The notes under the pieces are model-generated. The model was not told where the DNA came from and did no database searches. It was given only the letters and a program-made list of their open reading frames with translations. A program made the position numbers and the translations under genes. DNA of 64,000 nt from Altererythrobacter sp. KTW20L (GTDB lineage: Bacteria; Pseudomonadota; Alphaproteobacteria; Sphingomonadales; Sphingomonadaceae). Below, in pieces: positions 20,599 through 51,943 of this stretch (position 1 is its first letter; each line of letters opens with the position of its first letter). Where the stretch lies: the NCBI RefSeq assembly GCF_023501975.1, contig NZ_JAMFLH010000010.1, forward strand, positions 1-64,000, written 5' to 3'.

Positions 20599-22232
20599 GT
20601 GTGGTCCTCGAAACGCGGCAGGCTGCGGCCGCGCAGCATGTCTGCGGCCTTTTCGCCGATCATGATGGTGGGGGCGTTGGTGTTGCCTCCGGGCACATCG
20701 GGCATCACCGAGGCATCGATCACCCGCAGGCCCGCGATGCCGTGAACGCGCAGTTGCGGATCGACAACGGCGAGCGGTCCCTGGCCGATGGCACAGGTGC
20801 CGACCGGATGCTGGGTGACCTGGGCATATTGGCGGATATGTTCGTCCAGGGCCTCGTCGCTGGTCACATCGGGGCCGGGCAAGGTCTCGGACGCGACCAG
20901 GCCCGCCATCGGTTCCGTCCCGTAGAGCCGCCGCGCAATCCGGATGCCCGCGCGCGCCGTGGCAAAATCGGCCGCTGCGCTGAAGATGTTGAGGTGTATC
21001 TTCACCTTGTCCGCCGGATCGGCGCTGCGCAGCTCCACATGGCCCCGGCTTTCAGGGTGGAGCAGGATCACGTCGCTGGTCATCTCGTGCTTGGGCGGGG
21101 CCTTGATTCCGGGAAACCACAGGTGCGCGCCGACCTTGACCGGGTTGCACCACAGCTGGATGTCGGGCTGGGCCAGCCGAGGATCGGTGCGCAGGATCGG
21201 GTTGGCACTGTTGACCTGGGCGGCGAAGGCCCCGGTGCCAAACAGCTTCCATTCGATCACATGCCGCGCCGCGCGATCGAACCGAAGCTGGTTCACGAAG
21301 GTGACGGCGCCATTGGCGGCGAATTCGACCGGCACGCGGGGATGTTCTGACAGGTTCTGCCCTACGCCCGGCAGGTCGTGTGCCACTGCTATGCCATGCT
21401 GGCGCAGGTGCTCGGCCGGTCCGATGCCCGACAGCATCAGCAATTGCGGCGAATTGTAGCTACCGCCGGACAGGATCACCTCGCACCCGACCAGCGCCTG
21501 CTTCGCTTCGCCCTCGTGGGTAAAGGCCACGCCGATGGCGCGTTTGCCTTCCAGCATCACGCGTGACACCTGGGCGCCTGTCAGCACGGTGAGATTGGGC
21601 CGGGCCATCGCCGGTTTCAGATAGGCCGCAAAGGTCGAGGCACGCCGCCCGCGCTCGTCAATCGTCAGTTCGCCGCGCGCGACGCCTTCTTCGTAGACGT
21701 GGATATCCTCGGTAATGGGCAGGCCCGCAGCCTGCGCCGCTTCCATCAGCTGATCGTGCAGCAGGTGGCGCGTGGCGTTGCGTGTTACCGCCAGCGGACC
21801 CTGCGCGCCATGCTTGCCATCGTCGCCCGCCCAGTGCCGCTCCATCTTCAGGAAATAGGGCAGCACATCGGCATGGCTCCAGCCGCTGGCACCCTTTTGC
21901 GCCCAGCGATCGAAGTCTGATGAATGGCCGCGCATGTAGAACATGCCATTGATGCTGGACGATCCGCCCAGCAGCCGCCCGCGCGGCAGGAACAGGCGGC
22001 GCTGGTTCAGGTGCGGCTCCGGCTCGGACATATAGGGCCAGGTATAGCCGGGCTTGAACAGTGCCTTCAGGAAGCCCAGCGGCATGCGCAGCAGCCAGTC
22101 ATCACCCTTGCCGCCAGCTTCGAGCAGCAACACGCGGGTAGCCGCATCCTCGGTCAGCCGGGCGGCGAGAACAGCACCAGCCGATCCCGCGCCGACGATC
22201 ACATAGTCAAATTGCCCAGTTTCAAATTGCAT
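20595..22232 (-). CDS. GMC-family FAD-dependent alcohol oxidoreductase 2
   Basis: A 545-residue homologue of the downstream gene with the same landmarks: YVIVGAGSAGAVLAARLTED, GRLLGGSSSINGMFYMRGHS, GGSYNSPQLLMLSGIGPAEH, catalytic His in QHPVGTCAIG and Asn in GGNTNAPTIMIGEKAADML. It is the first gene of a two-gene operon and is divergent from an aldehyde dehydrogenase, a classic alcohol-to-acid pair. Two coupled GMC enzymes may divide stereoisomers of one substrate, as I recall for lignin-dimer catabolism in Sphingobium; polyglycol or other alcohols are alternatives. AAGGAG lies about a dozen bases before the ATG. Confidence 0.9.
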   Translation of the reverse strand: MQFETGQFDYVIVGAGSAGAVLAARLTEDAATRVLLLEAGGKGDDWLLRMPLGFLKALFKPGYTWPYMSEPEPHLNQRRLFLPRGRLLGGSSSINGMFYMRGHSSDFDRWAQKGASGWSHADVLPYFLKMERHWAGDDGKHGAQGPLAVTRNATRHLLHDQLMEAAQAAGLPITEDIHVYEEGVARGELTIDERGRRASTFAAYLKPAMARPNLTVLTGAQVSRVMLEGKRAIGVAFTHEGEAKQALVGCEVILSGGSYNSPQLLMLSGIGPAEHLRQHGIAVAHDLPGVGQNLSEHPRVPVEFAANGAVTFVNQLRFDRAARHVIEWKLFGTGAFAAQVNSANPILRTDPRLAQPDIQLWCNPVKVGAHLWFPGIKAPPKHEMTSDVILLHPESRGHVELRSADPADKVKIHLNIFSAAADFATARAGIRIARRLYGTEPMAGLVASETLPGPDVTSDEALDEHIRQYAQVTQHPVGTCAIGQGPLAVVDPQLRVHGIAGLRVIDASVMPDVPGGNTNAPTIMIGEKAADMLRGRSLPRFEDHT

Positions 22233-22300: not shown

Positions 22301-22364
22301 TGGCACCCGCTGGCTTGTATTGGACGGCCAGAGCCTGATAGCCAAATTCCAGAGGATGCCCGAT

Positions 22365-23888
22365 ATGTCCCCTCCCCCCATGCCCGTCGATACCTCGCTC
22401 TTACCAGCCTTGCGCGCCGACCTGCTGGCAAAACCGCGCCAGTTGTTCATCGGCGGCGAGTTCGTGAGCGCGGTGTCGGGTGAGACCTTCGAGGTGACCG
22501 ATCCTGCAACAGGCGCGGTAATCGGCCATGCCGCCTCTGCCGATGCCGCCGATATCGACCTTGCCGTGAAAGCTGCCAGCCGCTGCTTCGAAAGCGGCAA
22601 GTGGAGCAACATGGCACCGGCCCAGAGGGCGCGCATCATGCTGCGGCTGGCCGACCTGATCGAGGCCAATGCCAGCCGCATTGCGCTGACCGAAACGCTC
22701 GACAACGGCATGCCGCTGATGATGGCTTTCTTCGGCGGCGGCATGGGTGCTGCAGAGGCCCTGCGCTATTTCGCCGGCTGGTGCACCAAGCTGAACGGCG
22801 AGACCTTCACCCCGTCCAATCCCGGCGAATGGCATGCCTATACGGTGCGCGAGCCGGTCGGCGTGGTCGGCGCGATCGTGCCGTGGAATTTCCCCTTCGT
22901 GATGGCAGTGGCCAAGCTGGGCGCATCACTCGCGGCGGGCTGCACCGTGGTGCTGAAACCGGCCGAGCAGACCCCGCTTTCCGCCGTGATCCTGGCCGAA
23001 CTGGTGGCCGAGGCAGGCTTCCCCGAAGGCACGATCAACATCTGCACCGGCTTCGGCAAGACCGCAGGCGCGGCGCTTGTTGCCCATCCGCTGGTGGACA
23101 AGATCTCGTTCACCGGATCGACCGTGACCGGCAAGAGCATCGTCCATGCCTGCGCCGACAGTCTGAAGCGCGTTACACTGGAACTGGGCGGCAAGTCCCC
23201 GGTGATCATTTTCGCCGATGCCGACCTCGCCAAGGCTATCCCCGGCGCGGCGATGGGGATTTTCGGCAATGCCGGGCAGGTCTGCGCTGCCGGTTCGCGG
23301 CTGTTCGTGCATGAAAGTGTGCGCGACGAGGTGCTTGAAGGCATTTCGAACATGGCGCGCGGGCTGGTGGTCGGCAACGGGATGGATCCGCGCACGCAAA
23401 TGGGTCCGCTGGTGAGCGATGTGCAGTTCGCTCGCGTGACCGGCTATCTCGAAAGCGCTCTTGCCGAAGGCGCGCAGGTGCTGGTCGGCGGCGGCAAGCT
23501 GGATGTGGAAGGCGGCGAGGGCGGCAATTTCCTCGCCCCCACCGTGCTCACCGAAACCCGGGCCGGGATGAAGGCTGTGGAGGAAGAAATCTTCGGCCCC
23601 GTGCTGTGCACGATGACTTTCGGCGACGACGATCTGGAAGCGGTCGCGGCGGCGGCCAACGATACGCAGTACGGCCTGTCCTCCGCCATCTGGACCAACA
23701 ACATGTCCAACGGCCTGAAGCTGGCCAAGCGGTTGAAAGCGGGAATGGTGCGGATCAACGGCGGCATGGGCGGCCCCGATCCGGCAATGCCGCTGGGCGG
23801 CTTCAAGCAATCGGGCTGGGGCCGCGAGAACGGGCGGCAGGGTGTGGAAGCTTTCACTGAGATCAAGTCGGTCACGATCAACCTGTAG
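22365..23888 (+). CDS. NAD(P)-dependent aldehyde dehydrogenase
   Basis: A 507-residue enzyme of the ALDH superfamily that oxidises aldehydes to carboxylic acids. Motifs seen are the oxyanion Asn region GAIVPWNFPFVMAVAKLG, coenzyme loop SFTGSTVTGKSIVH, general base Glu in VTLELGGKSPVIIF, catalytic Cys in NAGQVCAAGSRLFV, and PLGGFKQSGWGREN near the end. The ATG at 22365 is chosen because AGAGG lies at good spacing; a start nine bases earlier is possible. It is divergent from two alcohol oxidoreductases, so it probably takes their aldehyde product. The closest family pattern is the phenylacetaldehyde/betaine aldehyde type, but specificity cannot be read. Confidence 0.92.
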   Translation: MSPPPMPVDTSLLPALRADLLAKPRQLFIGGEFVSAVSGETFEVTDPATGAVIGHAASADAADIDLAVKAASRCFESGKWSNMAPAQRARIMLRLADLIEANASRIALTETLDNGMPLMMAFFGGGMGAAEALRYFAGWCTKLNGETFTPSNPGEWHAYTVREPVGVVGAIVPWNFPFVMAVAKLGASLAAGCTVVLKPAEQTPLSAVILAELVAEAGFPEGTINICTGFGKTAGAALVAHPLVDKISFTGSTVTGKSIVHACADSLKRVTLELGGKSPVIIFADADLAKAIPGAAMGIFGNAGQVCAAGSRLFVHESVRDEVLEGISNMARGLVVGNGMDPRTQMGPLVSDVQFARVTGYLESALAEGAQVLVGGGKLDVEGGEGGNFLAPTVLTETRAGMKAVEEEIFGPVLCTMTFGDDDLEAVAAAANDTQYGLSSAIWTNNMSNGLKLAKRLKAGMVRINGGMGGPDPAMPLGGFKQSGWGRENGRQGVEAFTEIKSVTINL

Positions 23889-31386: not shown

Positions 31387-31491
31387 ATGAGAGTTTTGAT
31401 ACTTGCGGCCTCGTCGCCGCAACCCCTCACACCAAGGCTTAACGACACGCGCGGCTGGTCGGTTTGCGTCCCGGCGGTTATCACTTCCTGA
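31387..31491 (+). CDS. Short leader ORF coupled to the flavoprotein fusion
   Basis: A 34-codon frame begins MRVLILAASSPQPLTPRLND, with a strong ribosome binding site (GGGAGGGGG) four bases before the ATG. Its TGA at 31489-31491 overlaps the ATG of the flavoprotein fusion as TGATG, and that ATG has no good site of its own. It could be a leader peptide that drives translation of the next gene, or the stump of a deleted gene. No family was recognised. Confidence 0.4.
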   Translation: MRVLILAASSPQPLTPRLNDTRGWSVCVPAVITS

Positions 31492-38189: not shown

Positions 38190-38693
38190 CGCCGGGGATA
38201 GGCGGCTGCAGGCTGACCTGCATCGCCCCCCCCTACCCATGATGCGGTGCGCCGCCTCGTTTAAACGCTCCATCACATGGACAGCATGGACGAGATCGTC
38301 GGACGGCAGGACCTTTGAGATAGCGTCTTCCCACTCCTCGCCGACCGATGCCATTTCCAGGTAGATGGCCTGGCCCTCGGGCGAAAGGCGGAGAGACTTG
38401 GCGATATTGCCGGGCGTCCGCTGGCAGACCATCAAGCCGGTATCGACCAGCGACTTCACAGTTCGGCTGACCTGGGCGATATCGCGGTCAACCAGGGCGG
38501 CCAGTTCCCCGACCGATACCGGCCCGTGCTGTTCGACATGCATCATCATGCGATATTGCAGTTCGGTCAGCTTGAACCGGTCGCGATAGGTGGCGATCCG
38601 GTAGCGCACGACCGCCTCGGCCGCGAGGATGAGTTGATCCACCATGCGATCGGGTAAATGCGGAGCGGTAATGGCGAAGTTTCCGGATTGCAT
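37836..38693 (-). CDS. MarR-family regulator with read-through tail into btuD antisense
   Basis: The first 150 residues are a normal MarR regulator: FKLTELQYRMMMHVEQHGPV, SVGELAALVDRDIAQVSRTV, LVDTGLMVCQRTP and KSLRLSPEGQAIYL, ending about at ERLNEAAHRIMGRG. GGGAG before the ATG at 38693 supports the start. No stop follows. The frame continues for about 130 more residues with no family resemblance, antisense to the end of btuD, to a stop at 37836. MarR proteins are usually 140-170 residues, so the native stop was probably lost by a deletion near 38200-38240. The domain may still be functional. It is divergent from the second G8 gene, its likely target. Confidence 0.7.
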   Translation of the reverse strand: MQSGNFAITAPHLPDRMVDQLILAAEAVVRYRIATYRDRFKLTELQYRMMMHVEQHGPVSVGELAALVDRDIAQVSRTVKSLVDTGLMVCQRTPGNIAKSLRLSPEGQAIYLEMASVGEEWEDAISKVLPSDDLVHAVHVMERLNEAAHRIMGRGGRCRSACSRLSPALQALPRQQPAFAVVLAGQGGHAIDLFQNFGHQHGLGRTFAENAAPVHDDYPVEEAGREGQLVQHGQYAGAGPCPAAQYVHNRQLVKRVERGDRLVRQQQGRTCGERAGEQDAGFFAA

Positions 38694-38773
38694 GCAAATC
38701 TCCCAGCAGCCGATCTTCGAAAGGATTGTCCCGGCTTTGGTCGGAGTTTCTGGCGGTCGATGATCGGGCGATA

Positions 38774-38784
38774 CGTAATTTACG
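38774..38784. promoter_or_regulatory. Small palindrome in the MarR-G8 intergenic region
   Basis: CGTAA-T-TTACG is a perfect inverted repeat of five bases around a central T, in the 274-bp gap between the divergent MarR and G8 genes. MarR proteins bind short palindromes of this kind, but one site of this length can arise by chance. No other gene-like content is seen in the gap. Confidence 0.3.
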
Positions 38785-38967
38785 GTTATGGTCGGGTTAC
38801 ACAGACGTTTCACCGGCCAGGTGCGTATCCGGGACTTGTCCCGCAGGCCGAACGTGCGGCGGGCCTGCCGGAACGGATAGCTGCTTGCAAATTGATCCGT
38901 CCGTTGCGAAGCTACACGCAGAAAAGAATGCGGGACTCAAAAGAGTCTGCCTGAGGGGAAAAATATC

Positions 38968-42071: not shown

Positions 42072-42521
42072 TCAGACCTCTATCGCCAGCGCCATCCGCT
42101 CCAGGTACTTGTCCATGTCCGCCCGCTCCTCGCGCGCCAGGCCTGACAGGACGGTGTGGAAAAAGGCGCGGCGTTCCTGCCTTACCTGACGGTGCAGGGC
42201 GAGGCCCTCGGGTGTGGGGGTGATGATCTGGCGCTTCTTGTGGGCCGGATCGGGCTGGCGCTGCATCAGGCCGGAGGCAGCAAGGCGGCGAAAGGCGCGG
42301 CTGATCTCGGCCCGGTCGATTTCTCCTGCGGTACCGATCTCGCTGGCCGAACATGGCCCCAGGGCCGTGGCGATGGCCAGCACGCGCCATTCAGCCAGGG
42401 TCAGGCCGAACTTGCTGTGGAGTTGCTTGGCGGTTTCCCGGTCGATCATCCGGGCGAGCAGCAGCAGGCGGTAGGGCAGGTGATCCTCGCCAAACAGGTT
42501 CCAGACCTTGGGTAGCTCCAT
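42072..42521 (-). CDS. MarR-family transcriptional regulator of the DUF3237 catabolic unit
   Basis: A 149-residue winged-helix regulator of normal MarR length. Key parts are FGLTLAEWRVLAIATALGPC, SASEIGTAGEIDRAEISRAF (recognition helix), RLAASGLMQRQPDPAHKKRQ (wing) and TPTPEGLALHRQVRQERRAF. GGAG at seven bases supports the ATG at 42521. It is divergent from the DUF3237-hydrolase-DUF3237 operon, and the gap holds a palindromic site that recurs before the TonB receptor and the AAHS/DAAO genes. This makes it the best candidate for the local repressor, released by an aromatic acid as in many MarR systems. Confidence 0.88.
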   Translation of the reverse strand: MELPKVWNLFGEDHLPYRLLLLARMIDRETAKQLHSKFGLTLAEWRVLAIATALGPCSASEIGTAGEIDRAEISRAFRRLAASGLMQRQPDPAHKKRQIITPTPEGLALHRQVRQERRAFFHTVLSGLAREERADMDKYLERMALAIEV

Positions 42522-42608
42522 ATCGAACTCCAGACCTTGCAAGGGATCGCAGTGCGGTTCGCTGGCCCGCTTTCAAAGCGGACCAGATGTCGTGCTAACG
42601 CAAAATGT

Positions 42609-42639
42609 GTTGACGACTCAACTCCTGACCAGCTTTAAG
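42609..42639 (+). promoter_or_regulatory. Promoter with TTGAC-type palindromic operator (site 1)
   Basis: The perfect inverted repeat GTTGA-CGAC-TCAAC is at 42609-42622. Its left arm contains the -35 box TTGACG, and TTTAAG at 42634-42639 follows at 18 bp as a -10 box. Transcription would begin close to the ATG codons at 42641 and 42647, so the mRNA may be leaderless. The same core, with CTCCTG after it, recurs at 50135-50148 read on the minus strand. Confidence 0.6.
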
Positions 42640-42640
42640 C

Positions 42641-43129
42641 ATGATCATGACCGACCAGCACCCCTTCTCGCCGCGTATGGAATACGCTTTCACCATCTCT
42701 ATCGAACTTGGCAAGCCCTACTGGATACGTCCCAGTGCGCGGGGCGACACGCGTGCGGCAATCCACGCCGTGTCTGGCAAGGTCGAAGGACCGCGGCTGA
42801 ATGGCACGGTGGTGCCGATGTCGGGCGGGGACTATCCCCTGGCGCGCGACAACGGCGTGATCGATTTCGATGCCCGCTACCTGCTGGAGGCGGATGACGG
42901 CGCGCTGATTTATCTGCAGAATGTCGGCTACCGCTGGGCCAAGAATGACGAGATTGCGGCGAAGATGCGCAACAACGAGGATGTCGGCTTCGACGATTAC
43001 TACATGCGCGTTACTCCGCGCTTCGATGCGCCCGCAGGGCCGCACGAATGGATGTCGCGTCATGTTTTCGTGGGCGTGGCGGAGAAAGTGCCGGGCGCCA
43101 ATCGCATCCACTATTTCGTGGTGTTGTAA
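42641..43129 (+). CDS. DUF3237-domain protein 1
   Basis: A 162-residue cytosolic protein of the DUF3237 family: EYAFTISIELGKPYWI, GKVEGPRLNGTVVPMSGGDY, DARYLLEADDGALIYLQNVG and RFDAPAGPHEWMSRHVFVGV. The fold is a small beta-barrel. From memory, two DUF3237 proteins of a Sphingobium strain act as decarboxylases in catabolism of a phenylcoumaran lignin dimer; if this is right, a similar role is possible here. The start may be 42641 or 42647, as neither has a ribosome binding site. The stop overlaps the hydrolase start as TAATG. A second DUF3237 gene follows the hydrolase. Confidence 0.87.
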   Translation: MIMTDQHPFSPRMEYAFTISIELGKPYWIRPSARGDTRAAIHAVSGKVEGPRLNGTVVPMSGGDYPLARDNGVIDFDARYLLEADDGALIYLQNVGYRWAKNDEIAAKMRNNEDVGFDDYYMRVTPRFDAPAGPHEWMSRHVFVGVAEKVPGANRIHYFVVL

Positions 43130-44805
43130 TGGCCGCGCCGCGCTTTGCCGGGATCACCCGCCCGGGTGTCGATCCGTTCAGCGCAAAGCACAAGCCGCCG
43201 CTGCCGCCCGCCGACTATGACCGGCGCACCGAGCAGGGCCTTACGATCGAACGCAACTGCGTGATCCCTTTGCGCGACGGAACGGAGATTTTCTGCGACC
43301 TCTACCGTCCCGAAGGCGCGACGCGGGACCTGCCGGTCCTGCTGGCCTGGGGGCCCTACGGCAAGCATTCGCATTCCAACCAGGTGTTTTGGCCGCGGTC
43401 TGGCGTGAACCCTGATTGGCTGTCCACCCTGACCCCGTTCGAAGGGCCGGACCCGGTCTGGTGGGGAGGGCATGGCTATGGCGTGGCCGTTGTCGATCCG
43501 CGCGGGGCGTGGCTGTCGGGCGGGGACTTTTATCACAACGGCATCCAGGAGGCCGAGGACTGCGCCGATGCCATTGAATGGCTGGGCAGGCTGGACTGGG
43601 GCAATGGCCGGGTGGGCATGACCGGCGTGTCCTACCTTGCCGCGATCCAGTATCTGGTTGCTCCCCTGAAGCCGGAACCGCTTGCCGCGCTGAACCCGTG
43701 GGAGGGATTTTCCGACTGGTACCGCGAATTTGCCTACCACGGAGGCATCCCGGAAACTGGCTTCCTGCCGCGCGCGTCGGACAACATCATCTATTCGCTG
43801 GGGCGGACCGAGAACACGCTGGAAAACGTCCGCGCCCACCCGCTGATCGACGAGTTCTGGCAGTCCAAGGAACTCGATCTGGAGGGCATAACCCAGCCGT
43901 CCTATTGCGTGGCAAGCTGGTCAGACGTGGGCCTTCACCTGCGCGGCACGATTGAGGCATGGCGGCGCATGGGCGCTGCGCAGAAGTGGCTCGATGTTCA
44001 CGGCCAGAAGAAATGGGCGCACTATTACCTGCAATCGAGCAGGGACCGGCAACTGGCCTTTTTCGACCATTTCCTGCGTGATCGGCCGACCGCAGTCACC
44101 GCCTGGCCGCCGGTGCGGCTTGAAGTGCGCGAACGGCACGGCGTGGCGGTAGAGCGGGCCGAAAGCGAGTTCCCACCCGCCCGCACGACTTATTGCGACC
44201 TTCACCTCGATGCTGCGACCATGCGCCTGTCGGAAAATCCGCCGGGTGCGGCAAGCCTGCGGCAGTACGCGGTTGAAGGCAGCGCCTCCTTCGACCTCAC
44301 TTTCGATGTAGCCACCGAAGTCACCGGTCATGCCGCGCTGAAGCTGTGGGTGGAGGCGGACGGCAGCGACGATATGGACCTGTTCGTGGCGCTGGAGAAG
44401 ATCGACGCGGCGGGGGAGAAGGTGGGCTTCACCTTCTATGCCTTCTACGAATATGGCCCTGTAGCATTGGGCTGGCAGCGGGTCAGCCACCGCGCGCTGG
44501 ATTCCGAGCGCTCCACGCCGGAGCGCCCGGTCCACCTGCATACCCGCGAGGACCTGCTGGAGCCTGGCCAGGTTGTGCCGGTCGAGATCGAGTTCTGGCC
44601 CTTCTCGACCCGTTTCGAGGCTGGCGAAAGCCTGCGGCTGGTTGTCGCCGGGGCCGACATCTACCGGCGCGAGGAAGGCGCCATGCTGCCGTTCCCGATG
44701 CACGAGGACACCCGCAACAAGGGCGCACATGTGTTCCACACCGGCGGCGAACATGACTCCGTGTTGCGCCTGCCCATCGTCCCCGAAAGGACCAGCGAAG
44801 GATGA
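43129..44805 (+). CDS. CocE/NonD-family alpha/beta hydrolase (X-Pro dipeptidyl-peptidase type)
   Basis: A 558-residue serine hydrolase. The N-terminal alpha/beta domain has VIPLRDGTEIFCDLYRP, DLPVLLAWGPYGKH, GVAVVDPRGAWLSGG and the nucleophile elbow VGMTGVSYLAAIQ with the active Ser. CVASWSDVGLHLRGTIEAWR probably supplies the Asp, and the His may be in KKWAHYYL. The C-terminal jelly-roll domain (SFDLTFDVATEVTGHAALKL) is typical of CocE and X-Pro peptidases. Members hydrolyse esters such as cocaine, or acyl-amides. It is overlapped at both ends by DUF3237 genes (TAATG and ATGA), so the three products are made together. It probably cleaves an ester or amide in the substrate of this unit. Confidence 0.88.
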   Translation: MAAPRFAGITRPGVDPFSAKHKPPLPPADYDRRTEQGLTIERNCVIPLRDGTEIFCDLYRPEGATRDLPVLLAWGPYGKHSHSNQVFWPRSGVNPDWLSTLTPFEGPDPVWWGGHGYGVAVVDPRGAWLSGGDFYHNGIQEAEDCADAIEWLGRLDWGNGRVGMTGVSYLAAIQYLVAPLKPEPLAALNPWEGFSDWYREFAYHGGIPETGFLPRASDNIIYSLGRTENTLENVRAHPLIDEFWQSKELDLEGITQPSYCVASWSDVGLHLRGTIEAWRRMGAAQKWLDVHGQKKWAHYYLQSSRDRQLAFFDHFLRDRPTAVTAWPPVRLEVRERHGVAVERAESEFPPARTTYCDLHLDAATMRLSENPPGAASLRQYAVEGSASFDLTFDVATEVTGHAALKLWVEADGSDDMDLFVALEKIDAAGEKVGFTFYAFYEYGPVALGWQRVSHRALDSERSTPERPVHLHTREDLLEPGQVVPVEIEFWPFSTRFEAGESLRLVVAGADIYRREEGAMLPFPMHEDTRNKGAHVFHTGGEHDSVLRLPIVPERTSEG

Positions 44806-45251
44806 GCCCAGCCGACTGCCGCCTCGAACACGTGTTCGATATCGAAGTGATGTTCGGCGCCGATCGCATGATCTTCGGCCCCCTGCCGAGCGGGTCGAGC
44901 CAGGGCTATACCCCGGCCATCGGCGGCACGATCAGCGGGCCGAAACTGTCGGGCAGCGTGGTGCCCCATTCGGGCGCGGACTATGCCACGGTGCGGATTG
45001 ACGGGGTGATCGAACTGAAAGCGCATTACCTGCTGGAAGCAGACGACGGCACGCGCATTTACATCGAGAACAAGGGTTTCCTGGTGCGGCCTGCAGCAGG
45101 GGAGGCACAGCCTGCCTACTTCCGGTTGACCCCCTATTTCCGCGTTCCGCAAGGCCCGCACGACTGGCTGGAGCGCACCGTGATCGTGGGAGGCGGCGAA
45201 CGCCGTACCGCGCCGGACCGTAGCTTGTTTCGCTATTACGCACTGCGTTGA
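44802..45251 (+). CDS. DUF3237-domain protein 2
   Basis: A 149-residue relative of the first DUF3237 protein in the same operon. It shares GGTISGPKLSGSVVPHSGAD, HYLLEADDGTRIYIENKGF and RVPQGPHDWLERTVIVGGGE but differs enough to suggest a distinct role or stereospecificity. The start overlaps the hydrolase stop as ATGA. No signal peptide. The paired conserved residues GADY/GGDY and LLEADDG mark the likely active-site face, but this is not established by the sequence alone. Confidence 0.87.
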   Translation: MSPADCRLEHVFDIEVMFGADRMIFGPLPSGSSQGYTPAIGGTISGPKLSGSVVPHSGADYATVRIDGVIELKAHYLLEADDGTRIYIENKGFLVRPAAGEAQPAYFRLTPYFRVPQGPHDWLERTVIVGGGERRTAPDRSLFRYYALR

Positions 45252-45298
45252 TCCTGTCACAGCTGCAGCCAATTCGCTTCGAAGGGGCAGGGCTCGTT

Positions 45299-45312
45299 AT
45301 TGACAAATCAAC
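45299..45312. promoter_or_regulatory. TTGAC-type palindromic operator (site 2)
   Basis: ATTGA-CAAA-TCAAC is one base short of the perfect repeat at 42609 and contains TTGACA, a consensus -35 box. It is followed by ACCTG, as site 1 is by TCCTG. It lies 105 bp before the TonB receptor start. A -10 box at the usual distance is not obvious. Confidence 0.55.
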
Positions 45313-45417
45313 ACCTGTGCGCGAATCGTAGGCACGGTTACGCGAGAGGATCGATCTCACACAGCGGACCGCATCGCCGTCAGGCGGCAACGATATTCTT
45401 GACTTGGGAGAGCAGAA

Positions 45418-48282
45418 ATGGCGCAACTAAACGGTCGTACGTTCCGTAGTGGACGGGGGCGATTTCATGGGCGGTTCGGGGTCAGCACGGCTGCCCTGGC
45501 GCTGGCGCTCGGATTTCCGGCCCTGGCCCAGGCGCAGGATACCGACGAAGGTGCCGCGCAGGGCGACACCATCGTGGTGACCGGTTCGCGTATCGCGCGC
45601 GAAGGGTTCGATTTGCCCCAGCCGGTGACCGTGGTCGGTGCCGAACAGATTGGTCGGCAGGGTGCCAGCAATGTGGCGGCCGTCCTCAACGACCTGCCCG
45701 CTTTCCGGCCGCAGAACACCGCATCCACCACGGCGATCTTCCAGAACAATATTGGCGCCAACACCGCCGACCTGCGCGGCCTCGGGGCCAACCGCACGCT
45801 GGTGCTGATCGACGGCAGGCGCGTTGTGCCCGCCACCGTGCAGGGCAGTTCCTTTGCCCCGGCGGGCGCGGTCGATCTCAACATGGTTCCGTCATCGCTG
45901 GTCGAGCGGGTTGAAGTGGTCACCGGGGGCGCTTCTGCTGCCTATGGTTCCGACGCCGTGGCCGGCGTGGTCAACCTCATCATCAACACCAACCTGCAGG
46001 GCATCCGCGCCAGCGTGCAGGGTGGGATCACCGATGAAGGCGATAACGAGGAATTCGCCGCCTCGCTGGCCATCGGCGACAGCTTCGCCGGGGGCCGCGG
46101 CCGCGTGGTTGTCGGCGCGGAATATGTCGATGTGCAGGGCACCGGCGATTGCTATTCGCGGGCCTGGTGCGCGCTCAGCTATAACACGGTCAGCAACCCG
46201 CTGATCGATCCGGCGGATCGGTCACTTGGGCGGGTGTCACCGGGCGATCCGGCCACGCTGATCCTGCCCAATGCGCGGACGGCTACAGCCACCGCCAACG
46301 GCATTGTCATCTCCGGTCCCCTGCGCGGGACCGAATTCAATCCCGATGGCACTACCTTCCAGCACGATTACGGCACGTTCTTCGGGGCGGGCATTTTCCA
46401 GAGCGGCGGCGGAGACGACCGGCTGGCGTTCTATGAGAACTTCCCCATCGCCTCGCCGAGCGAGCGGATCAACACCTTCGGCCATGTGGAATATGACCTG
46501 ACCGACGCGGTCACCTGGTTTGCCGAAGGCTCGTTCAGCCGCGTCAGTGCCGAGACCATCGGTGCCCAGCGGCGCGATCTTGGCCCGCGCCGGATCACCC
46601 GCGACAACCCCTTCATCCCGGACAGCGTTGGCGCACAGATGGACGATCTGGGACTGCCTGCCATCATGGTGGGCAGGATATGGAACGATCTCGGCCCGCA
46701 GCAGGGCCGGGTGGAGCGCGATATCTATCGTGCCGTCACCGGCTTTGAGGCCGGACTTGGGTCCGGGTGGAGCCTCGACGCCTATTACCAGTACGGCCAG
46801 ACCAACTACAGCCAGCGCGGGTTCAACACCAACATCAACCAGAACATGATCTATGCGCTGGACGTGGTTACCGATCCGAACACCGGAGATCCGATCTGCC
46901 GGGCGGTGTTGCAGGGCGTTGCTGCCGCCGCCGGCTGCCAGCCGATCAACATCTTCGGCGAAGGCAGCCCTTCTGCCGCAGCGGCGGACTATGTCAGCGG
47001 CACGGTGGAACAGGACACCACGCTGAAGCAGCACGTCGCCAGCCTGGCGGTGCAGGGCAGCCTGCTGGAACTTCCGGGCGGATCGCTGGCCCTGGCCACC
47101 GGCGTGGAATTCCGCAAGGACCAGGCCACCGGCACGGCCGACCCGATCTCGACCGCACTGGGCTTCTATACCGGCCCCGGCGCGCCGATCTCGGGCAGTG
47201 TCGATGTGTGGGAAGGCTTCGTCGAAGTCGTCGCGCCGATTGTCGACATGGTCGAACTGAACGGTGCCGTGCGCCTGACCGACTACAGCACCAGCGGCTC
47301 GGTCACGACGTGGAAGGTGGGCGCGGACTTCGCTCCGGCGGACTGGATCCGCTTCCGCGCCACCCGTTCGCGCGATATCCGTGCGCCCAACATCTTCGAA
47401 CTGTTCGGCCCGCTGCAAAGCTCGTTCCAGTCGGTAGTTGATGGCAGCACTCAAGTGCTCGCCTCGGTGCTACTCGGCGGTAATGCTACTCTACAGCCGG
47501 AGCGGGCCGATACCTGGACTGCGGGCGTGGTACTTCAGCCCGAGATAGGACCGGGCAACCTGCGATTGTCTGTCGACTATTACGACATCAAGCTTGATGG
47601 CGCTATTTCAACCCTGGGAGCCCAGGTGCTGGTCACACGTTGCAATGAGGGCAGGACAGAATTTTGCCAGTTCATTGATCGCAACGACAATGACGAGATC
47701 ACCACGATCCGCAATTTCAATCTCAACCTCAACTCCCTGATCACTCGCGGCTGGGATATCGAAGCAAGCTACCGGATGCCGCTGGGCAATGGTGACCTGT
47801 CGCTGCGGGCGCTGGCCACCATCGTAGATGACCTGATCACAGTGGATTCGGCTGGAGTGGCGATTGACCGGGCGGGAATGAATGGTTCGCCGGTATCGCA
47901 GCCGTCGGGCGTGCCGCGCTACATCATCAACTCCTACCTGTCCTATGATGCCGACCCGTTCGCCGTGCAGTTGCAGATGCGGCACATTGCGGCAGGGGCC
48001 TACAATACCGCCCTGGTCGGTCCGGGAGACGAGGGATACGATCCCTTGAAGGACAACAGCATCAACGACAACCGGATCGGTGCCTGGACCTACTTCAACC
48101 TCAACGCCAGCTATGACCTGTGGGCCGATGGCGACAGAAACCTCCAGCTGTTCGGGGTGGTCAACAACCTGTTCGACAAGGATCCGCCGGTCGATGCCCC
48201 GTCCAGCTTCGGTCCGACCAACAACGTGCTGTATGACGTGATCGGCCGCAGCTACAAGCTGGGCTTGCGCTTCCGCTACTGA
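45418..48282 (+). CDS. TonB-dependent outer-membrane receptor (954 aa)
   Basis: A large outer-membrane receptor. A long signal peptide ends near LAQAQDTDEG; GDTIVVTGSRIAREG holds the TonB box. The plug has NVAAVLNDLPAFRPQNTAST, DLRGLGANRTLVLIDGRRVV and ERVEVVTGGASAAYGSDAVA, typical of the sphingomonad catabolic receptor group. The barrel ends in YKLGLRFRY. The promoter region carries the operator shared with the DUF3237 operon and the AAHS/DAAO genes, so it probably imports the substrate of that unit, which must then be too large or too scarce for porins. A terminator follows. Confidence 0.9.
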   Translation: MAQLNGRTFRSGRGRFHGRFGVSTAALALALGFPALAQAQDTDEGAAQGDTIVVTGSRIAREGFDLPQPVTVVGAEQIGRQGASNVAAVLNDLPAFRPQNTASTTAIFQNNIGANTADLRGLGANRTLVLIDGRRVVPATVQGSSFAPAGAVDLNMVPSSLVERVEVVTGGASAAYGSDAVAGVVNLIINTNLQGIRASVQGGITDEGDNEEFAASLAIGDSFAGGRGRVVVGAEYVDVQGTGDCYSRAWCALSYNTVSNPLIDPADRSLGRVSPGDPATLILPNARTATATANGIVISGPLRGTEFNPDGTTFQHDYGTFFGAGIFQSGGGDDRLAFYENFPIASPSERINTFGHVEYDLTDAVTWFAEGSFSRVSAETIGAQRRDLGPRRITRDNPFIPDSVGAQMDDLGLPAIMVGRIWNDLGPQQGRVERDIYRAVTGFEAGLGSGWSLDAYYQYGQTNYSQRGFNTNINQNMIYALDVVTDPNTGDPICRAVLQGVAAAAGCQPINIFGEGSPSAAAADYVSGTVEQDTTLKQHVASLAVQGSLLELPGGSLALATGVEFRKDQATGTADPISTALGFYTGPGAPISGSVDVWEGFVEVVAPIVDMVELNGAVRLTDYSTSGSVTTWKVGADFAPADWIRFRATRSRDIRAPNIFELFGPLQSSFQSVVDGSTQVLASVLLGGNATLQPERADTWTAGVVLQPEIGPGNLRLSVDYYDIKLDGAISTLGAQVLVTRCNEGRTEFCQFIDRNDNDEITTIRNFNLNLNSLITRGWDIEASYRMPLGNGDLSLRALATIVDDLITVDSAGVAIDRAGMNGSPVSQPSGVPRYIINSYLSYDADPFAVQLQMRHIAAGAYNTALVGPGDEGYDPLKDNSINDNRIGAWTYFNLNASYDLWADGDRNLQLFGVVNNLFDKDPPVDAPSSFGPTNNVLYDVIGRSYKLGLRFRY

Positions 48283-48290
48283 TCGCGCAA

Positions 48291-48318
48291 CCGGGCAGGG
48301 CCATGCGGTCCTGCCCGG
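48291..48318. terminator. Bidirectional terminator between convergent genes
   Basis: CCGGGCAGG (48291-48299) and CCTGCCCGG (48310-48318) form a perfect 9-bp stem with a 10-base loop. It lies exactly between the TonB receptor stop and the stop of the minus-strand NTF2-like gene. No T run follows, so efficiency is uncertain. Confidence 0.6.
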
Positions 48319-48717
48319 CTAGCGGGCCGAGCGCCAGAAGTTGGCCGTGCGGATGCGGGTGAACAGCCCGTTTTCATCGATGTCGTAGAACGCGAAATTG
48401 CGGCTCTGGCGTCGCTCGCCTGCGGTCATCGGACCATTGGGAAAGTGCGGCCAGTCGCCCCTGGATACCAGCGTGGTGAGCAGTTCTGCTGCCACCAGCC
48501 CGGGTGATCCGACAAAGGCCAGCACTTCTACCGTTTCGTCCACCTGGGCGTGGATCCGGCCATAGAAATCCATGATAGCCTGGCCGCCGGTGAGCTTTGC
48601 CGCCTGCCCTTGGAAGTCCACTTGCGGGGCATAGTAGGCCCCGAAGCCGGCATAGTCGCGGGCGTTGAAGGCGGCGACATAGCGGTCGAACCACTCCCGA
48701 CTGCCGACCTGTGCCAC
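48319..48717 (-). CDS. NTF2-like/SnoaL-fold small protein
   Basis: A 132-residue protein with the cone-shaped NTF2-like fold: EWFDRYVAAFNARDYAGFGA, YYAPQVDFQGQAAKLTGGQA, IMDFYGRIHAQVDETVEVLA and SRNFAFYDIDENGLFTRIRT. Members include isomerases, dehydratases and ester-forming enzymes that act on small aromatic or polyketide molecules; others only bind ligands. It has no signal peptide. It starts four bases after the stop of the AAHS transporter gene and belongs to that operon. A catalytic role in the same pathway is likely, but the active residues are not certain. Confidence 0.8.
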   Translation of the reverse strand: MAQVGSREWFDRYVAAFNARDYAGFGAYYAPQVDFQGQAAKLTGGQAIMDFYGRIHAQVDETVEVLAFVGSPGLVAAELLTTLVSRGDWPHFPNGPMTAGERRQSRNFAFYDIDENGLFTRIRTANFWRSAR

Positions 48718-48721
48718 CTAG

Positions 48722-50077
48722 TCAGACCCGCCCGGCTTCCGGTGCCAGCACGGCTTTGCCGGTGCGCACCACTCTGCCCAGCACCAGGATCAGCACGACC
48801 ACGGTCAGCGGCAGCAGGGCGGCAATGCCCAGCGTCAGTTCCAGCGAATAGTGCTGGGCTACCGCATGCCCGCCATAGACCGGTGCCAGCACTCCGCCGA
48901 CCCGCCCCGCACCGCCAGCCCAGCCGAGCGCCGTACTGCGCATCCGCGGCGGGTAGATCTTGGTGATCAGCGTGTTGAGCCCGGCCTGTCCGCCGGTCTG
49001 GAGGAAGTTGAAGGCGATCAGGATGAAGACGAAGATCTGCGCCTCGAACGAAACCCAGCCCATGCCGATATAGGCCAGGAACAGGCCGAAGTAGAACAGC
49101 GGGATCATCCGCGTGGCGCGGAAGCGGTCCATCAGGTAGCCGATCAGCAGTGTGCCGGTGATCGCGCCGAGATAGCCGATCAGGGCGGACACGGCGAATT
49201 CCTGGATCGGCACACCGGCCATTTCCTGGAAGAAGGTCGGCAGCCACTGGCTGGTCAGCGCGATGCTGGTCATCGAGATCAGGCAGGCGGCCCACAGCAC
49301 GGCGGTCATCAGGCCGCGGCCTTCGGTGAAGATATCGCTAAGCTTCGCCTTGCGGGCCTCCCCATCGGACTTGCCGAAAACATAGACCGGATCTTCCGGC
49401 ACTTCCACGGTGCGGTCCAGCCGCCGCAGAATGGGGGCGATGCGCGGATCGCGTGGGTTGCGTTCGGCTCGGAACTTGATCGATTCCGGCACGAAGAACA
49501 ACAGCAGCGGGATGCAGGCGATGGGCGCGATGCCGCCGATCCAGAAGGCGCTCTGCCAGCCATAGTCGTCGATCAGCCAGGCCGCCACCGCGCCGCTTGC
49601 CGCATTGCCGGTGGAATAGCCGACCAGCGACAGTGCAACGAATGTGGCGCGCCGCCTTGCAGGGGCCGCTTCGGAAATCAGCGCCAGGGCCATGGGCAGG
49701 CCGGCTGCCATGAACACGCTGGCGAGCGCGCGCAGGACCGTCAGCTGGGTCAGCGTCTCAGCCCACACACTGACAAGTGTAAAGCCGCCGAACAAGGCGC
49801 ACGACATCGTCAACATGCGCCGCCGGCCAAAGCGGTCGGCCAGCGGGGAGACCACGAAAGCGCCCACTGCCATGGCGATCTGCTGCCAGATGAACAGGTT
49901 GGCCATGGCCTCGGGCGGCTGGCCGAAATCGGCGGCAATCGCGGGGGCGATCTTGCCGATCATGAACATGTCGAACCCGTCGATGAAGCACACCAGTCCG
50001 CAGACCAGCAGGATCAGCAATTGCGGGCGGCCGATGGCCTGCCTGTCGATGAATGCCTCGATATCGAACCGGTTCAT
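48722..50077 (-). CDS. MFS transporter, aromatic acid:H+ symporter (AAHS) type
   Basis: A 451-residue major-facilitator protein with twelve predicted helices. AAHS features are the first helix LLVCGLVCFIDGFDMFMIGK with its Asp residues, the loop PLADRFGRRRMLTMSC between helices 2 and 3, and the repeated loop GYLMDRFRATRMIPLF after helix 8. Relatives such as PcaK and VanK import protocatechuate, vanillate or similar acids. AGGG six bases upstream supports the ATG at 50077. The promoter (site 3) shares its operator with the DUF3237 unit. It probably brings an aromatic or related acid into the cytoplasm. Confidence 0.9.
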   Translation of the reverse strand: MNRFDIEAFIDRQAIGRPQLLILLVCGLVCFIDGFDMFMIGKIAPAIAADFGQPPEAMANLFIWQQIAMAVGAFVVSPLADRFGRRRMLTMSCALFGGFTLVSVWAETLTQLTVLRALASVFMAAGLPMALALISEAAPARRRATFVALSLVGYSTGNAASGAVAAWLIDDYGWQSAFWIGGIAPIACIPLLLFFVPESIKFRAERNPRDPRIAPILRRLDRTVEVPEDPVYVFGKSDGEARKAKLSDIFTEGRGLMTAVLWAACLISMTSIALTSQWLPTFFQEMAGVPIQEFAVSALIGYLGAITGTLLIGYLMDRFRATRMIPLFYFGLFLAYIGMGWVSFEAQIFVFILIAFNFLQTGGQAGLNTLITKIYPPRMRSTALGWAGGAGRVGGVLAPVYGGHAVAQHYSLELTLGIAALLPLTVVVLILVLGRVVRTGKAVLAPEAGRV

Positions 50078-50117
50078 GCGGCCCTGGACCTCTCTGTCGC
50101 GGGAATATGCCAAACCG

Positions 50118-50148
50118 GCTTAGACAGCAGCAGGAGTTGAGTGGTCAA
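50118..50148 (-). promoter_or_regulatory. Promoter with TTGAC-type palindromic operator (site 3)
   Basis: The perfect inverted repeat GTTGA-GTGG-TCAAC is at 50135-50148. Read on the minus strand it gives GTTGACCACTCAACTCCTG, one base different from site 1 over 19 bases, with TTGACC as -35 and TCTAAG as a plausible -10 about 18 bp on. It drives the AAHS gene and lies 155 bp upstream of the divergent DAAO-like gene, which it may also control. Confidence 0.62.
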
Positions 50149-50303
50149 CATAAATTTGGCGACTTGCCTGGCGGGTGTCGAGCCTGGCGCGACCGTTGCA
50201 ATACGCAATTTGCGCAATATCCGCTGTTCCCGTTTTTCCCGAAGCGGTCCGGCAGGGGGACCCGGCTTTGACACACCTGCCTTTGCGTTCGGCGACCATT
50301 GGT

Positions 50304-51521
50304 ATGCAGAACCGCCGCGGCGTGATGCGCGGTACGCTGGCCCTGGCTGGCGGGCTGGCATTGCCCGGAAGCCTGCGCGCCCAGGCCCTGCTCGGCCCAG
50401 CACCGCCGCTTGTCCCCATGCGGCTTTCGCCCGACCAGCTGATTGACCTGAAGTGCTGCATCCGCCCGCTGCGCGCTGCCGGGCCGAACCTCGGCACTGA
50501 AACGGTGCGCGACCGGCTGGTAATCCACAACTATGGCCACGGCGGCAGCGGCTGGTCGCTGTCGTGGGGTTCGGCCGAAGTGGCCGTGGGCAAGGCGCTG
50601 TCGGTCCTGCCGGACAGGATCGCGGTGGTCGGTTGCGGCATCATCGGCCTGACTTCGGCCATCGTCGCCCAGCGCGCCGGGCTGGCCGTTACCATCTATG
50701 CCCGCGACCCGATCCAGCAGACCCGCTCGTTCCGGGCGAGCGGCTCGTTCACGCCGGGATCGCGCATTGCCCTTGCAGGGCCCGCAGGTCCGCAGTTTCC
50801 CGACCAGTGGGAGCACATGGCGCGCTATTCGTGGAAGATGTTCCGCACGATGCTGGGGCTGCCGGGAGAGCCGGTGGCGTTCGGGGACAGCTACTCTCTG
50901 TCGGACAACCCGATCGAACGGCGCACCTGGCCGGCCGATCCTGCCATCGCTGCCCGTTACGAAACCACAGGCCTGCCGCAGCAGAACTCCGAATTTGCCA
51001 GGCTCGATTCCCGGATCAGGGACATTGTGCCCCAGTCGGTGCCGCTGCAACCCGGGGAGAATCCCTTCGGCACGCCCTATGCCACGCGTTCCTCGCACAT
51101 GTATTTCAACTTCCCCGCCTACAGCCACCTGCTGATGACCGAGTTTCTCGCCCGCGGCGGCCGCTATGAAATGCGCAACCTGCATAGCCCGGCCGATGTG
51201 GGCGACCTGCCCGAACGGGTCGTGATCCACGCTACCGGCTATGCCGCGCGCGACCTGTGGCAGGATCATACGGTCATCCCGGTGCGCGGACAGACCGGCT
51301 GGCTGGTACCGCAACCGGGGGTCAATTATTCCATCCGTTCGAACAACATGTCGGCCATGGCCAAGGCAGACGGGATCGTGATCATGAACAACAACCCGGA
51401 TCTTGGCGAAATGCTGGGGGTGGGCGACAGCATGGAACTACCCAACCGCGCGCCAGTGGAGGAAGCCATGGCCAGCCTCTCGCGCTTCTTCTGGCCTGCC
51501 GACCAGCGGGGGGCGGCATGA
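50304..51521 (+). CDS. Tat-exported FAD oxidoreductase, D-amino-acid-oxidase type
   Basis: A 405-residue flavoprotein. It begins MQNRRGVMRGTLALAGGLAL, a twin-arginine-like signal ending near LRAQA, then has a Rossmann FAD motif DRIAVVGCGIIGLTSAIVAQ with YARD at the end of strand 2, and HATGYAARDLWQD later, as in the DAAO family. The usual C-terminal catalytic loop is present but divergent. A GTG 129 bases upstream would bury the signal, so 50304 is preferred, although no ribosome binding site is clear. It overlaps the next gene, a cytochrome c. I infer a periplasmic dehydrogenase that passes electrons to cytochrome c, not an oxygen-using oxidase. Confidence 0.8.
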   Translation: MQNRRGVMRGTLALAGGLALPGSLRAQALLGPAPPLVPMRLSPDQLIDLKCCIRPLRAAGPNLGTETVRDRLVIHNYGHGGSGWSLSWGSAEVAVGKALSVLPDRIAVVGCGIIGLTSAIVAQRAGLAVTIYARDPIQQTRSFRASGSFTPGSRIALAGPAGPQFPDQWEHMARYSWKMFRTMLGLPGEPVAFGDSYSLSDNPIERRTWPADPAIAARYETTGLPQQNSEFARLDSRIRDIVPQSVPLQPGENPFGTPYATRSSHMYFNFPAYSHLLMTEFLARGGRYEMRNLHSPADVGDLPERVVIHATGYAARDLWQDHTVIPVRGQTGWLVPQPGVNYSIRSNNMSAMAKADGIVIMNNNPDLGEMLGVGDSMELPNRAPVEEAMASLSRFFWPADQRGAA

Positions 51522-51943
51522 ACCGGCGGGCTCTGGCGATTGCCCTGGCGGGCGGACTGGCAATGCTTGCGGCAAGCCCGGCGACCGGCCGCGGCACCCA
51601 GAGCGGGGTCTATACGACCGGGCAGGCGGACGAGGGCGCGCGGATCTATGCCGCGCGCTGTGCGATGTGCCACGGGGCGCAACTTGAAGGCACGGTGGAA
51701 ACGCCGGGCCTGGTCGGAAAGTTCGTGGCCAACTGGGCAGGGCGGCCGCTGGGCAACCTGTTCGCTTATCTGGGGCGCGCCATGCCCCAGAACGCACCCG
51801 GCACGCTGTCGCCGGAAGATACCACTGCACTGGTGGCTTTCATCCTGCGTGCCAACGGAGCGCCAGCGGGAAGCCGTCCGCTTTCGCCGGACGCAGCAGG
51901 TCTCGGGCGGATCGATTTCGAAGCCGCTTCGCTGGCCAGATGA
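51518..51943 (+). CDS. Exported c-type cytochrome paired with the DAAO-like enzyme
   Basis: A 141-residue class I cytochrome c. A signal peptide (MNRRALAIALAGGLAMLAAS) is followed by the heme motif AARCAMCHGAQLEG. The sixth ligand is probably the Met in GRAMPQNAPGTLSPED. The ATG overlaps the flavoprotein stop as ATGA. One heme only. The tight coupling suggests it takes electrons from the flavoprotein in the periplasm and passes them to the respiratory chain. Confidence 0.9.
   Translation: MNRRALAIALAGGLAMLAASPATGRGTQSGVYTTGQADEGARIYAARCAMCHGAQLEGTVETPGLVGKFVANWAGRPLGNLFAYLGRAMPQNAPGTLSPEDTTALVAFILRANGAPAGSRPLSPDAAGLGRIDFEAASLAR

Follow-up and report, generated by a model that had tools for sequence, protein, structure and literature searches.

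A conserved palindromic operator at a probable phenylcoumaran (phc) locus of Altererythrobacter sp. KTW20L, with an adjacent MarR-type protein as candidate repressor

The window analyzed here, 64,000 nucleotides of Altererythrobacter sp. KTW20L (contig NZ_JAMFLH010000010.1), probably carries a sphingomonad phc locus for the catabolism of phenylcoumarans (beta-5 lignin dimers) under a local MarR-type repressor; the probability of this reading is put at roughly three in four. A pattern scan of the whole 3.09-Mb genome gave three occurrences, and no more, of a palindrome, RTTGA-N4-TCAAY (RTTGANNNNTCAAY); each precedes genes, and together they fall inside one 7.5-kb stretch. The features are listed below (window coordinates; percentages are identities).

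18994..20598, minus strand, GMC oxidoreductase, PhcC-like (67%; Pfam GMC)
20595..22232, minus strand, GMC oxidoreductase, PhcD-like (71%; Pfam GMC)
22347..23888, start approximate, plus strand, aldehyde dehydrogenase (59% to the SYK-6 gene adjoining phcD)
42072..42521, minus strand, MarR-family regulator of 149 aa, the proposed repressor (Pfam MarR, 2.4e-10)
42609..42622, plus strand, operator 1, GTTGACGACTCAAC, preceding the phcG-like/hydrolase/phcF-like operon, with marR divergent
42641..43129, plus strand, DUF3237 protein, PhcG-like (63% to the SYK-6 protein at 997.5 kb)
43129..44805, plus strand, CocE/NonD-family serine hydrolase with a GVSYL nucleophile motif (61% to a SYK-6 gene)
44802..45251, plus strand, DUF3237 protein, PhcF-like (60% to the SYK-6 protein at 996.9 kb)
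45299..45312, plus strand, operator 2, ATTGACAAATCAAC, preceding the TonB receptor gene
45418..48282, plus strand, TonB-dependent outer-membrane receptor (62% to the SYK-6 receptor at 991.3 kb)
48319..48717, minus strand, SnoaL/NTF2-like protein (62% to the SYK-6 gene at 1005.5 kb)
48722..50077, minus strand, MFS transporter of the aromatic acid/H+ symporter (AAHS) type (62% to the SYK-6 gene at 1006.0 kb); the start codon is a chosen one, and a longer frame starts at 50113
50136..50149, minus strand, operator 3, minus-strand letters GTTGACCACTCAAC, preceding the MFS gene
50304..51521, plus strand, DAO-family FAD oxidase (DAAO), a neighbor and probably no conserved member
51518..51943, plus strand, cytochrome c, a neighbor and probably no conserved member

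The gene content given by the initial annotation (MarR, two DUF3237 proteins, CocE/NonD hydrolase, TonB receptor, AAHS-type MFS transporter, DAO-family oxidase and cytochrome c) was upheld. The 149-aa protein contains a MarR winged-helix domain (PF01047, 40.6 bits; cut-off 24.6), and the hydrolase matches its family profile (TIGR00976, 207.9 bits; cut-off 66.3). GVSYL, a GxSYL-type nucleophile motif, is present in 11 of the 11 hydrolase orthologues listed, and no signal peptide was seen by eye in the hydrolase. The SnoaL-like gene at 48319–48717, behind the MFS gene, had been overlooked.

The enzymes of phenylcoumaran breakdown are already known. According to the parts of the literature used as background here (PMC12607616, PMC11323797, PMC12997858, PMC8191317, PMC6874591, PMC8599685, PMC6888825, PMC13273656, PMC12642758), the phc genes of Sphingobium sp. 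SYK-6 (PhcC, PhcD, PhcF, PhcG) serve the catabolism of DCA, their locus degrades beta-5 lignin dimers, and the DUF3237 proteins include the decarboxylases PhcF, PhcG and PinX. The SYK-6 chromosome (NC_015976.1) holds homologues of the whole set at 991–1014 kb, with identities of 59–71% (39% for MarR): PhcC, PhcD, PhcF and PhcG together with the neighboring TonB, hydrolase, SnoaL, MFS, aldehyde dehydrogenase and MarR genes. Gene order in SYK-6 fits the tags published for phcF, phcG, lsd7, phcC and phcD, and the identity of phcF and phcG in that DNA rests on this order and these tags. The two loci differ in that the order is rearranged and the phcC/phcD-like pair of the window lies 20 kb upstream without a site; an operator at the promoter of that pair was rejected, since nothing with fewer than three mismatches occurs in 22200–22500. 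The pathway had been described as one not known from the literature. This does not hold, because the DUF3237 pair is homologous to PhcG/PhcF and the GMC pair to PhcC/PhcD.

That three promoters share one palindrome, as the initial annotation had claimed, is confirmed by the three exact places; two of its positions (42609 and 45299) were right, and the third, given as 50135, was off by one and is corrected to 50136. The genome-wide scan that it had proposed returned these three places and not hundreds of unrelated matches. Over the whole window, RTTGAYNANTCAAY with at most one mismatch gives four matches at three places, one of them being read on both strands, compared with a mean of 1.03 in shuffled sequence, and four were reached in 1 of 100 shuffles. 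It is the clustering of the operators and not their number that is improbable, because a model of independent bases at the GC content of the window expects about 2.9 RTTGA-N4-TCAAY places per genome and 0.0095 per 10 kb. The 19-bp form with up to three mismatches retrieves genome-wide the three operators (no mismatches) and one other place (three mismatches). With relaxed flanks (TTGANNNNTCAAC), six places are found in the host genome, three at the locus and one each on C12, C23 and C32; a simple ORF call puts the two inspected, on C12 and C32, at a frame start or within a frame.

Conservation of the locus sites across orthologous loci is supported by two sets of relatives. The core TTGA-N4-TCAA is present in 12 of 14 orthologous loci from genomes of the family, and a second set, of loci from named relatives, contains 173 sites in 64 of 80; conservation in related genomes was a check that had been proposed. 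No site among the 173 falls inside a matched pathway gene, the median for 216 arm/spacer forms in the same 80 loci being 3. A site lies at most 140 bases upstream of a PhcG-type match in 36 of the 80 loci; the nearest matched downstream gene is that of the TonB receptor at 18 and of the MFS transporter at 10 of the 173 sites. One relative (G102) has a second copy of the cluster, with MarR (50%), TonB receptor (71%), the DUF3237 pair (62% and 60%), MFS and SnoaL; in this copy, sites stand between marR and tonB as well as ahead of both the DUF3237 pair and mfs. Across 11 genomes, TTGANNNNTCAAC occurs at 77 places, 28 within the hydrolase locus and 49 outside it, and a control with the reversed pattern gave 31 rows vs 97. 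Inspection covered nine of the 49 off-locus places (four in SYK-6, G102 1247451 and 1258780, two in the host genome and one in G066); the place in G066 (C10:97196) lies inside a predicted frame.

All three sites contain TTGAC on one strand, so the palindromes could be read as ordinary -35 elements with chance symmetry and no operator function. This is highly improbable: all three of the genome-wide RTTGANNNNTCAAY places are at the locus, and both arms are kept in 64 of the 80 loci. As to the idea that a -35 box TTGAC lies inside the palindrome, a strict scan found no sigma-70 promoter (TTGACA/TATAAT, 16–18 nt apart) at the three sites, but TTGAC is favored on the gene strand of phcG-type promoters, its C being present in 75% of 37 sequences that include the window. 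The CCTG that follows the sites, which had been counted as part of the element, was discarded: it is next to 1 of the 173 sites in the named relatives at the spacing of the window, and the form that includes it, TTGACNNNTCAACNCCTG, is present in 3 of 397 family genomes, the host counted among them.

In SYK-6 the site also occurs away from the locus, at four places: at lsdG, at a ring-hydroxylating oxygenase gene, at a SnoaL gene pair (whose SnoaL protein is 52% identical to that of the window) and inside a predicted frame of 1743 aa. At lsdG, far from the phc locus, 14 bases separate a perfect site from the start codon downstream of it, and the divergent gene, taken at its longest frame, overlaps the site. 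In the parts of the literature used, LsdG (LSD2) cleaves the PhcFG product with a preference for DCA-S and is reported to be upregulated on DCA, as are LSD4, LSD6 and LSD7; LSD4 is the main DCA-S enzyme, and DCA-S cleavage is kept in an LSD2 mutant. Only LSD2 among these four has a site of its own, and none was found at the LSD4 and LSD6 genes of SYK-6, although both are reported as DCA-upregulated.

The adjacent MarR protein is the best candidate for the regulator of the operators. In 7 of the 14 orthologous loci, MarR proteins with 37–51% identity to it are encoded near the cluster, and by eye an EISRA-type stretch around the recognition helix of these relatives is nearly invariant. Loci with a MarR or tandem-MarR match have the site in 53 of 59 cases vs 11 of 21 loci without a match (80 loci, not corrected for kinship), and in five of the six matched loci without a perfect site, the stretch from marR to phcG contains two versions with one mismatch. 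It is quite unlikely that the operator belongs to another regulator (a tandem MarR–MarR, an IclR or another MarR-type protein of the window) while the protein of 42072–42521 acts elsewhere. Tandem MarR genes do stand beside the sites in SYK-6 and relatives, an IclR gene with nearby sites is found in many loci, and the window encodes two more MarR-type proteins (37836–38813 and the tail of 31464–33428). However, the 149-aa MarR is the only one adjoining the sites, queries with the tandem MarR and IclR proteins gave no match in the window at 1e-5, and in the 80 loci the single MarR has 51 matches against 19 for IclR and 12 for the tandem. Neither of the two further MarR-type proteins is close to the cluster MarR (tblastn, 1e-5).

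The DAAO–cytochrome pair was rejected as a conserved member of the unit. No DAAO or cytochrome gene was found within the compared stretches of the 80 loci (tblastn, E 1e-10), and the pair is absent from the 14 orthologous loci. The closest relative of the DAAO protein (65%), in G076, is encoded about 200 kb away from the phc-like cluster of that genome, and the flanks of about 1.5 kb around four other DAAO loci scanned are free of operator sites. The single unit first proposed thus retains outer- and inner-membrane uptake, hydrolysis and DUF3237 chemistry, which the conserved sites join, and loses periplasmic oxidation by DAAO–cytochrome (0/80 loci).

In the mechanism proposed from these data, a MarR dimer would bind GTTGA-N4-TCAAC over the likely -35 of the phcG–hydrolase–phcF, tonB and mfs–snoaL promoters and block transcription, and could also reach its own divergent promoter. 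The ligand that releases the repressor would come from the pathway itself and is probably a phenylcoumaran acid or its stilbene. The TonB receptor may then import the dimer into the periplasm and the AAHS-type MFS carrier bring it into the cytoplasm, and the CocE-type esterase, predicted to be cytoplasmic, would convert esterified dimers to carboxylates. The PhcC/PhcD-like GMC oxidases and the aldehyde dehydrogenase would oxidize alcohols to the acid, and the DUF3237 proteins, as a putative enantiomer-specific pair, would decarboxylate this acid and open its furan ring, yielding a stilbene that is presumably cleaved by a lignostilbene dioxygenase. The genome has six RPE65-family matches as candidates for this dioxygenase; one, in the window, has an internal stop.

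A pathway for another dimer in place of beta-5 phenylcoumarans, for instance a beta-beta lignan (the PinX case) or an aromatic ester not derived from lignin, is unlikely. It would fit the inclusion of PinX in DUF3237, an esterase for which the available text on the DCA pathway describes no step, a TPP enzyme in the cluster of one clade (24 of 80 loci) and the rarity of GMC genes in the compared stretches. Conversely, the best homology and the gene content are shared with phcC, phcD, phcF and phcG of SYK-6, the locus used for the direct comparison, and a site stands before lsdG too, which encodes an enzyme with a preference for the PhcFG product.

Parts of the phc arrangement resemble other systems. 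In the ddv system of SYK-6, the MarR repressor DdvR stands over a TonB receptor (DdvT), and there is an inner-membrane carrier (DdvK) along with lignin-dimer enzymes (ligXa, ligZ, ligY), but the substrate is a 5,5-dimer and the enzymes are others; TTGANNNNTCAAC has no place in the first 991 kb of the SYK-6 chromosome, the expected home of the ddv tags SLG_07xxx as estimated from tag numbers. DesR of SYK-6, also a MarR repressor, has an inverted repeat that recurs at several promoters and overlaps a -35 region at one of them, whereas its repeat is of the GTTTGTGTCACATAC type and its genes are those for vanillate/syringate. PinX of Novosphingobium rhizosphaerae LY is a DUF3237 decarboxylase that opens a furan ring, though of a beta-beta lignan; the terms MarR, TonB, MFS and hydrolase are absent from the text of the PinX paper. 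In the open-licence literature, no description was found of a phc regulator, operator, outer-membrane receptor or inner-membrane carrier, nor of MarR, operator, TonB receptor, MFS carrier and CocE-type esterase as a single unit, and the TonB receptor genes for each lignin-derived compound are given as still to be identified in the part of PMC8599685 consulted.

The probable phc locus described here offers one concrete candidate each for the regulator, operator, receptor and carrier of phenylcoumaran breakdown, and its operator can serve as a search motif for further members in related genomes. The unexplained esterase points towards the natural substrate. Tentatively, and with the odds somewhat against it, the regulon may serve the uptake and de-esterification of 8-5-coupled diferulate esters from grass cell walls (or of acylated phenylcoumarans), an unrecognised entry route. 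Free 8-5-diferulate is identical in structure to DCA-CC and would therefore enter directly at the PhcF/PhcG decarboxylation. If this is true, a lignostilbene dioxygenase would be drawn in from elsewhere in the genome, and one MarR operator would join the consumption of cell-wall cross-links and lignin-dimer catabolism across many Sphingomonadales.

The three operators of the window mark a regulon that is real, conserved in relatives, and part of a known pathway; the genes around them are listed below. The initial annotation had taken the pathway to be unknown, but its gene set matches the phc pathway of Sphingobium sp. SYK-6 for catabolism of DCA (a phenylcoumaran, beta-5 lignin dimer) at 59–71% identity (39% for MarR). 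The PhcF-, PhcG-, PhcC-, and PhcD-type proteins of the window are 60, 63, 67, and 71% identical to those of SYK-6, the hydrolase, TonB receptor, MFS, and SnoaL proteins 61–62%, and the ALDH 59%.

Genes and operators of the window (strand where recorded)
18994-22232, PhcC/PhcD-like genes, outside the interval first proposed (42072..51943)
42072-42521, minus strand, MarR
42609-42622, plus strand, operator 1
42641-43129, DUF3237
43129-44805, CocE/NonD hydrolase
44802-45251, DUF3237
45299-45312, plus strand, operator 2
45418-48282, TonB receptor
48319-48717, minus strand, SnoaL-like
48722-50077, minus strand, AAHS-type MFS
50136-50149, minus strand, operator 3
50304-51521, DAO-family oxidase
51518-51943, cytochrome c

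The SYK-6 locus (991–1014 kb) carries, in order, a TonB receptor, hydrolase, DUF3237 pair, SnoaL, tandem MarR, and ALDH, and then a dioxygenase (1003.7 kb), SnoaL, MFS, GMC, SnoaL, GMC, ALDH, and MarR. Reported members of the DUF3237 family are PinX and two SYK-6 enzymes, PhcF and PhcG, which decarboxylate DCA-CC enantiospecifically (PMC12607616; PMC12997858). Published tags are SLG_09360 and 09370 for phcF and phcG and 09480 and 09500 for phcC and phcD (PMC12997858); lsd7, with published tag 09440, is about 5 kb or less from both pairs. Because gene order agrees with these tags, the SYK-6 DUF3237 pair was assigned to phcF (996.9 kb) and phcG (997.5 kb), and the GMC pair to phcC and phcD. At phcD of SYK-6 the site is present only with one mismatch, and the PhcC/PhcD-like genes of the window have none. 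A tandem MarR-MarR protein (two domains in one chain) also stands beside an aldehyde dehydrogenase in the SYK-6-type clusters L045:13439-14437, L046:13789-14757, and L050:12949-14556.

A scan of the full genome with RTTGANNNNTCAAY, the operator pattern with its flanks, finds exactly three places in 3,088,045 bases, all inside the proposed interval; the first two sites lie where they had been placed, and the third one base further on. About three places per genome are expected under a simple model of base composition, so the finding is their clustering and not their number (0.0095 expected per 10 kb under this model, 3 seen). The looser-flank form TTGANNNNTCAAC occurs at six places, three of them in this stretch, and the 19-bp form only at the three sites and once with three mismatches. 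Eighteen bases separate the end of operator 1 from the first DUF3237 start codon; operator 2 lies 105 bases upstream of the TonB start, and operator 3 lies 58 bases upstream of the MFS start as chosen in this analysis. A strict sigma-70 scan at the three sites found nothing. By eye, if TTGAC is a –35 box, the predicted phcG-type transcription start falls at or beside the start codon in the window (42609-42647) and some relatives, and thus this mRNA may be leaderless.

Among 249 family genomes, 84 gave any match to the hydrolase, and 14 loci with at least 58% identity were taken as orthologous (the window's own excluded; in G193 the gene is truncated at a contig end); six further loci were fetched alongside. 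Across these 14, the gene set returns in rearranged order, with a single MarR in 7 and TonB at at least 57% in 8. The DAO-family oxidase–cytochrome pair, originally counted in the unit, drops out, as neither gene occurs in any of the 14. The sites, expected to be kept in orthologous loci, are: TTGA-N4-TCAA is present in 12 of 14 (L047 and L054 are without). An alignment scan of named genomes for the PhcG-type DUF3237 protein confirmed 91 relatives, of which 80 were kept. These 80 loci (1.54 Mb) hold 173 sites, compared with a median of 3 when the same bases are arranged in 216 arm/spacer forms and 79 for the next-best, an overlapping form. No site among them reaches further than 20 bases into a gene that the pathway queries matched. 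Assigned to the nearest matched downstream gene within 400 bases, the sites precede genes for PhcG-type (34), ALDH (8), PhcF-type (8), GMC (3), TPP (3), and hydrolase (1) enzymes, and for MarR (20), TonB (18), SnoaL (13), MFS (10), and IclR (10); 45 have no matched gene. At least one site is present in 64 of 80 loci: 51/57 with a strong hydrolase match and 13/23 without, or 53/59 with a MarR or tandem-MarR match versus 11/21 without (Fisher p 0.0007, relatedness ignored). In five of the six regulator loci lacking a perfect site, the stretch from marR to phcG holds two versions with one mismatch. The symmetric consensus of the named loci is G-TTGA-N4-TCAA-C. PhcG-type promoters of the window and of 36 of the 80 loci, 37 in all, have C after TTGA on the gene's strand in 75%, which suits a –35 box, and A at the mirror position in 83%. 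One clade, represented by L043:5990-11154 and many of L137-L174, has an extended cluster in which an IclR gene and one for a TPP-dependent enzyme follow, again close to sites; a TPP enzyme is not known to act in any phc step.

In SYK-6, TTGANNNNTCAAC also occurs at four places away from the phc locus. At the first of these, only 14 bases separate the site from the start codon of a dioxygenase gene at 3944.1 kb, by order the lignostilbene dioxygenase gene LSD2/lsdG (SLG_36640). LSD2 reportedly prefers DCA-S, the PhcFG product (PMC8191317), and is upregulated on DCA (Kamimura et al., as cited in PMC8191317); the site came from the window's pattern alone, without prior use of these reports. Two points count against this test: LSD4, LSD6, and LSD7, likewise cited as upregulated on DCA (PMC8191317), are siteless (LSD4 and LSD6 have no TTGANNNNTCAAC site, and LSD7, within the cluster, none of its own), and an LSD2 mutant is reported to retain cleavage activity (PMC8191317). 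Of the remaining three places, one is upstream of a SnoaL gene (52% identical to that of the window), one upstream of a ring-hydroxylating oxygenase gene, and one inside a predicted frame. In G102, the relative that carries L044, an off-locus place leads to a second cluster (MarR 50%, TonB 71%, DUF3237 pair 62 and 60%, SnoaL, and MFS), where sites stand in the marR–tonB interval and upstream of both the DUF3237 pair and mfs. This second regulon copy is L255 (G102:C1:1240001-1260000); its MFS match is in two overlapping pieces, perhaps through a frameshift. Across 11 genomes, TTGANNNNTCAAC gave 97 rows versus 31 for the reversed pattern. The core by itself is without genome-wide specificity, because only 28 of 77 TTGANNNNTCAAC places in these genomes are in the hydrolase locus and 49 are elsewhere (hand tally; 9 of the 49 inspected).

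Relatives have two regulator types alongside the cluster, and the window has two MarR-type proteins besides the cluster MarR. In the best reading, a putative MarR repressor would act at the –35 region and a pathway compound would release it. DesR of SYK-6, for which repression and release by a pathway compound are reported, is a model for both steps, and DdvR, with reported repression, for repression alone. Three kb from the cluster, 37836-38813 (minus strand) encodes another regulator of this type (Pfam MarR 31 bits, cut-off 24.6), which is not close to the cluster MarR. The single open frame at 31464-33428 (plus strand) joins an FAD_binding_4 (VAO-type) oxidase to a terminal MarR domain; this could be a fused protein, or two genes between which a stop is missing. 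At 30060-31718 (minus strand), a gene like those for lignostilbene dioxygenases (RPE65 family) is split between two open frames, and a stop falls within the region that matches the profile; it may have become a pseudogene recently, or the sequence may contain an error. Elsewhere in this genome, more DUF3237 genes lie less than 5 kb from lignostilbene-dioxygenase genes (G000:C5:51529-55065 and G000:C30:31955-37933), perhaps marking other lignan pathways.

The window hydrolase is a clear relative of a known structure (3ib3, E 5e-113), has the GVSYL nucleophile motif, and shows no evident signal peptide; from these features, it would act on imported esters. Published syntheses reportedly make both DC-A and DC-S-C from 8-5-coupled diferulate, and from names and syntheses we read DCA-CC and 8-5-diferulic acid as one structure. 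Esters of 8-5-diferulic acid are therefore a natural candidate substrate. The core chemistry of the regulon is already known, and its operator, regulator, uptake parts, and esterase are, as far as literature searches show, new.
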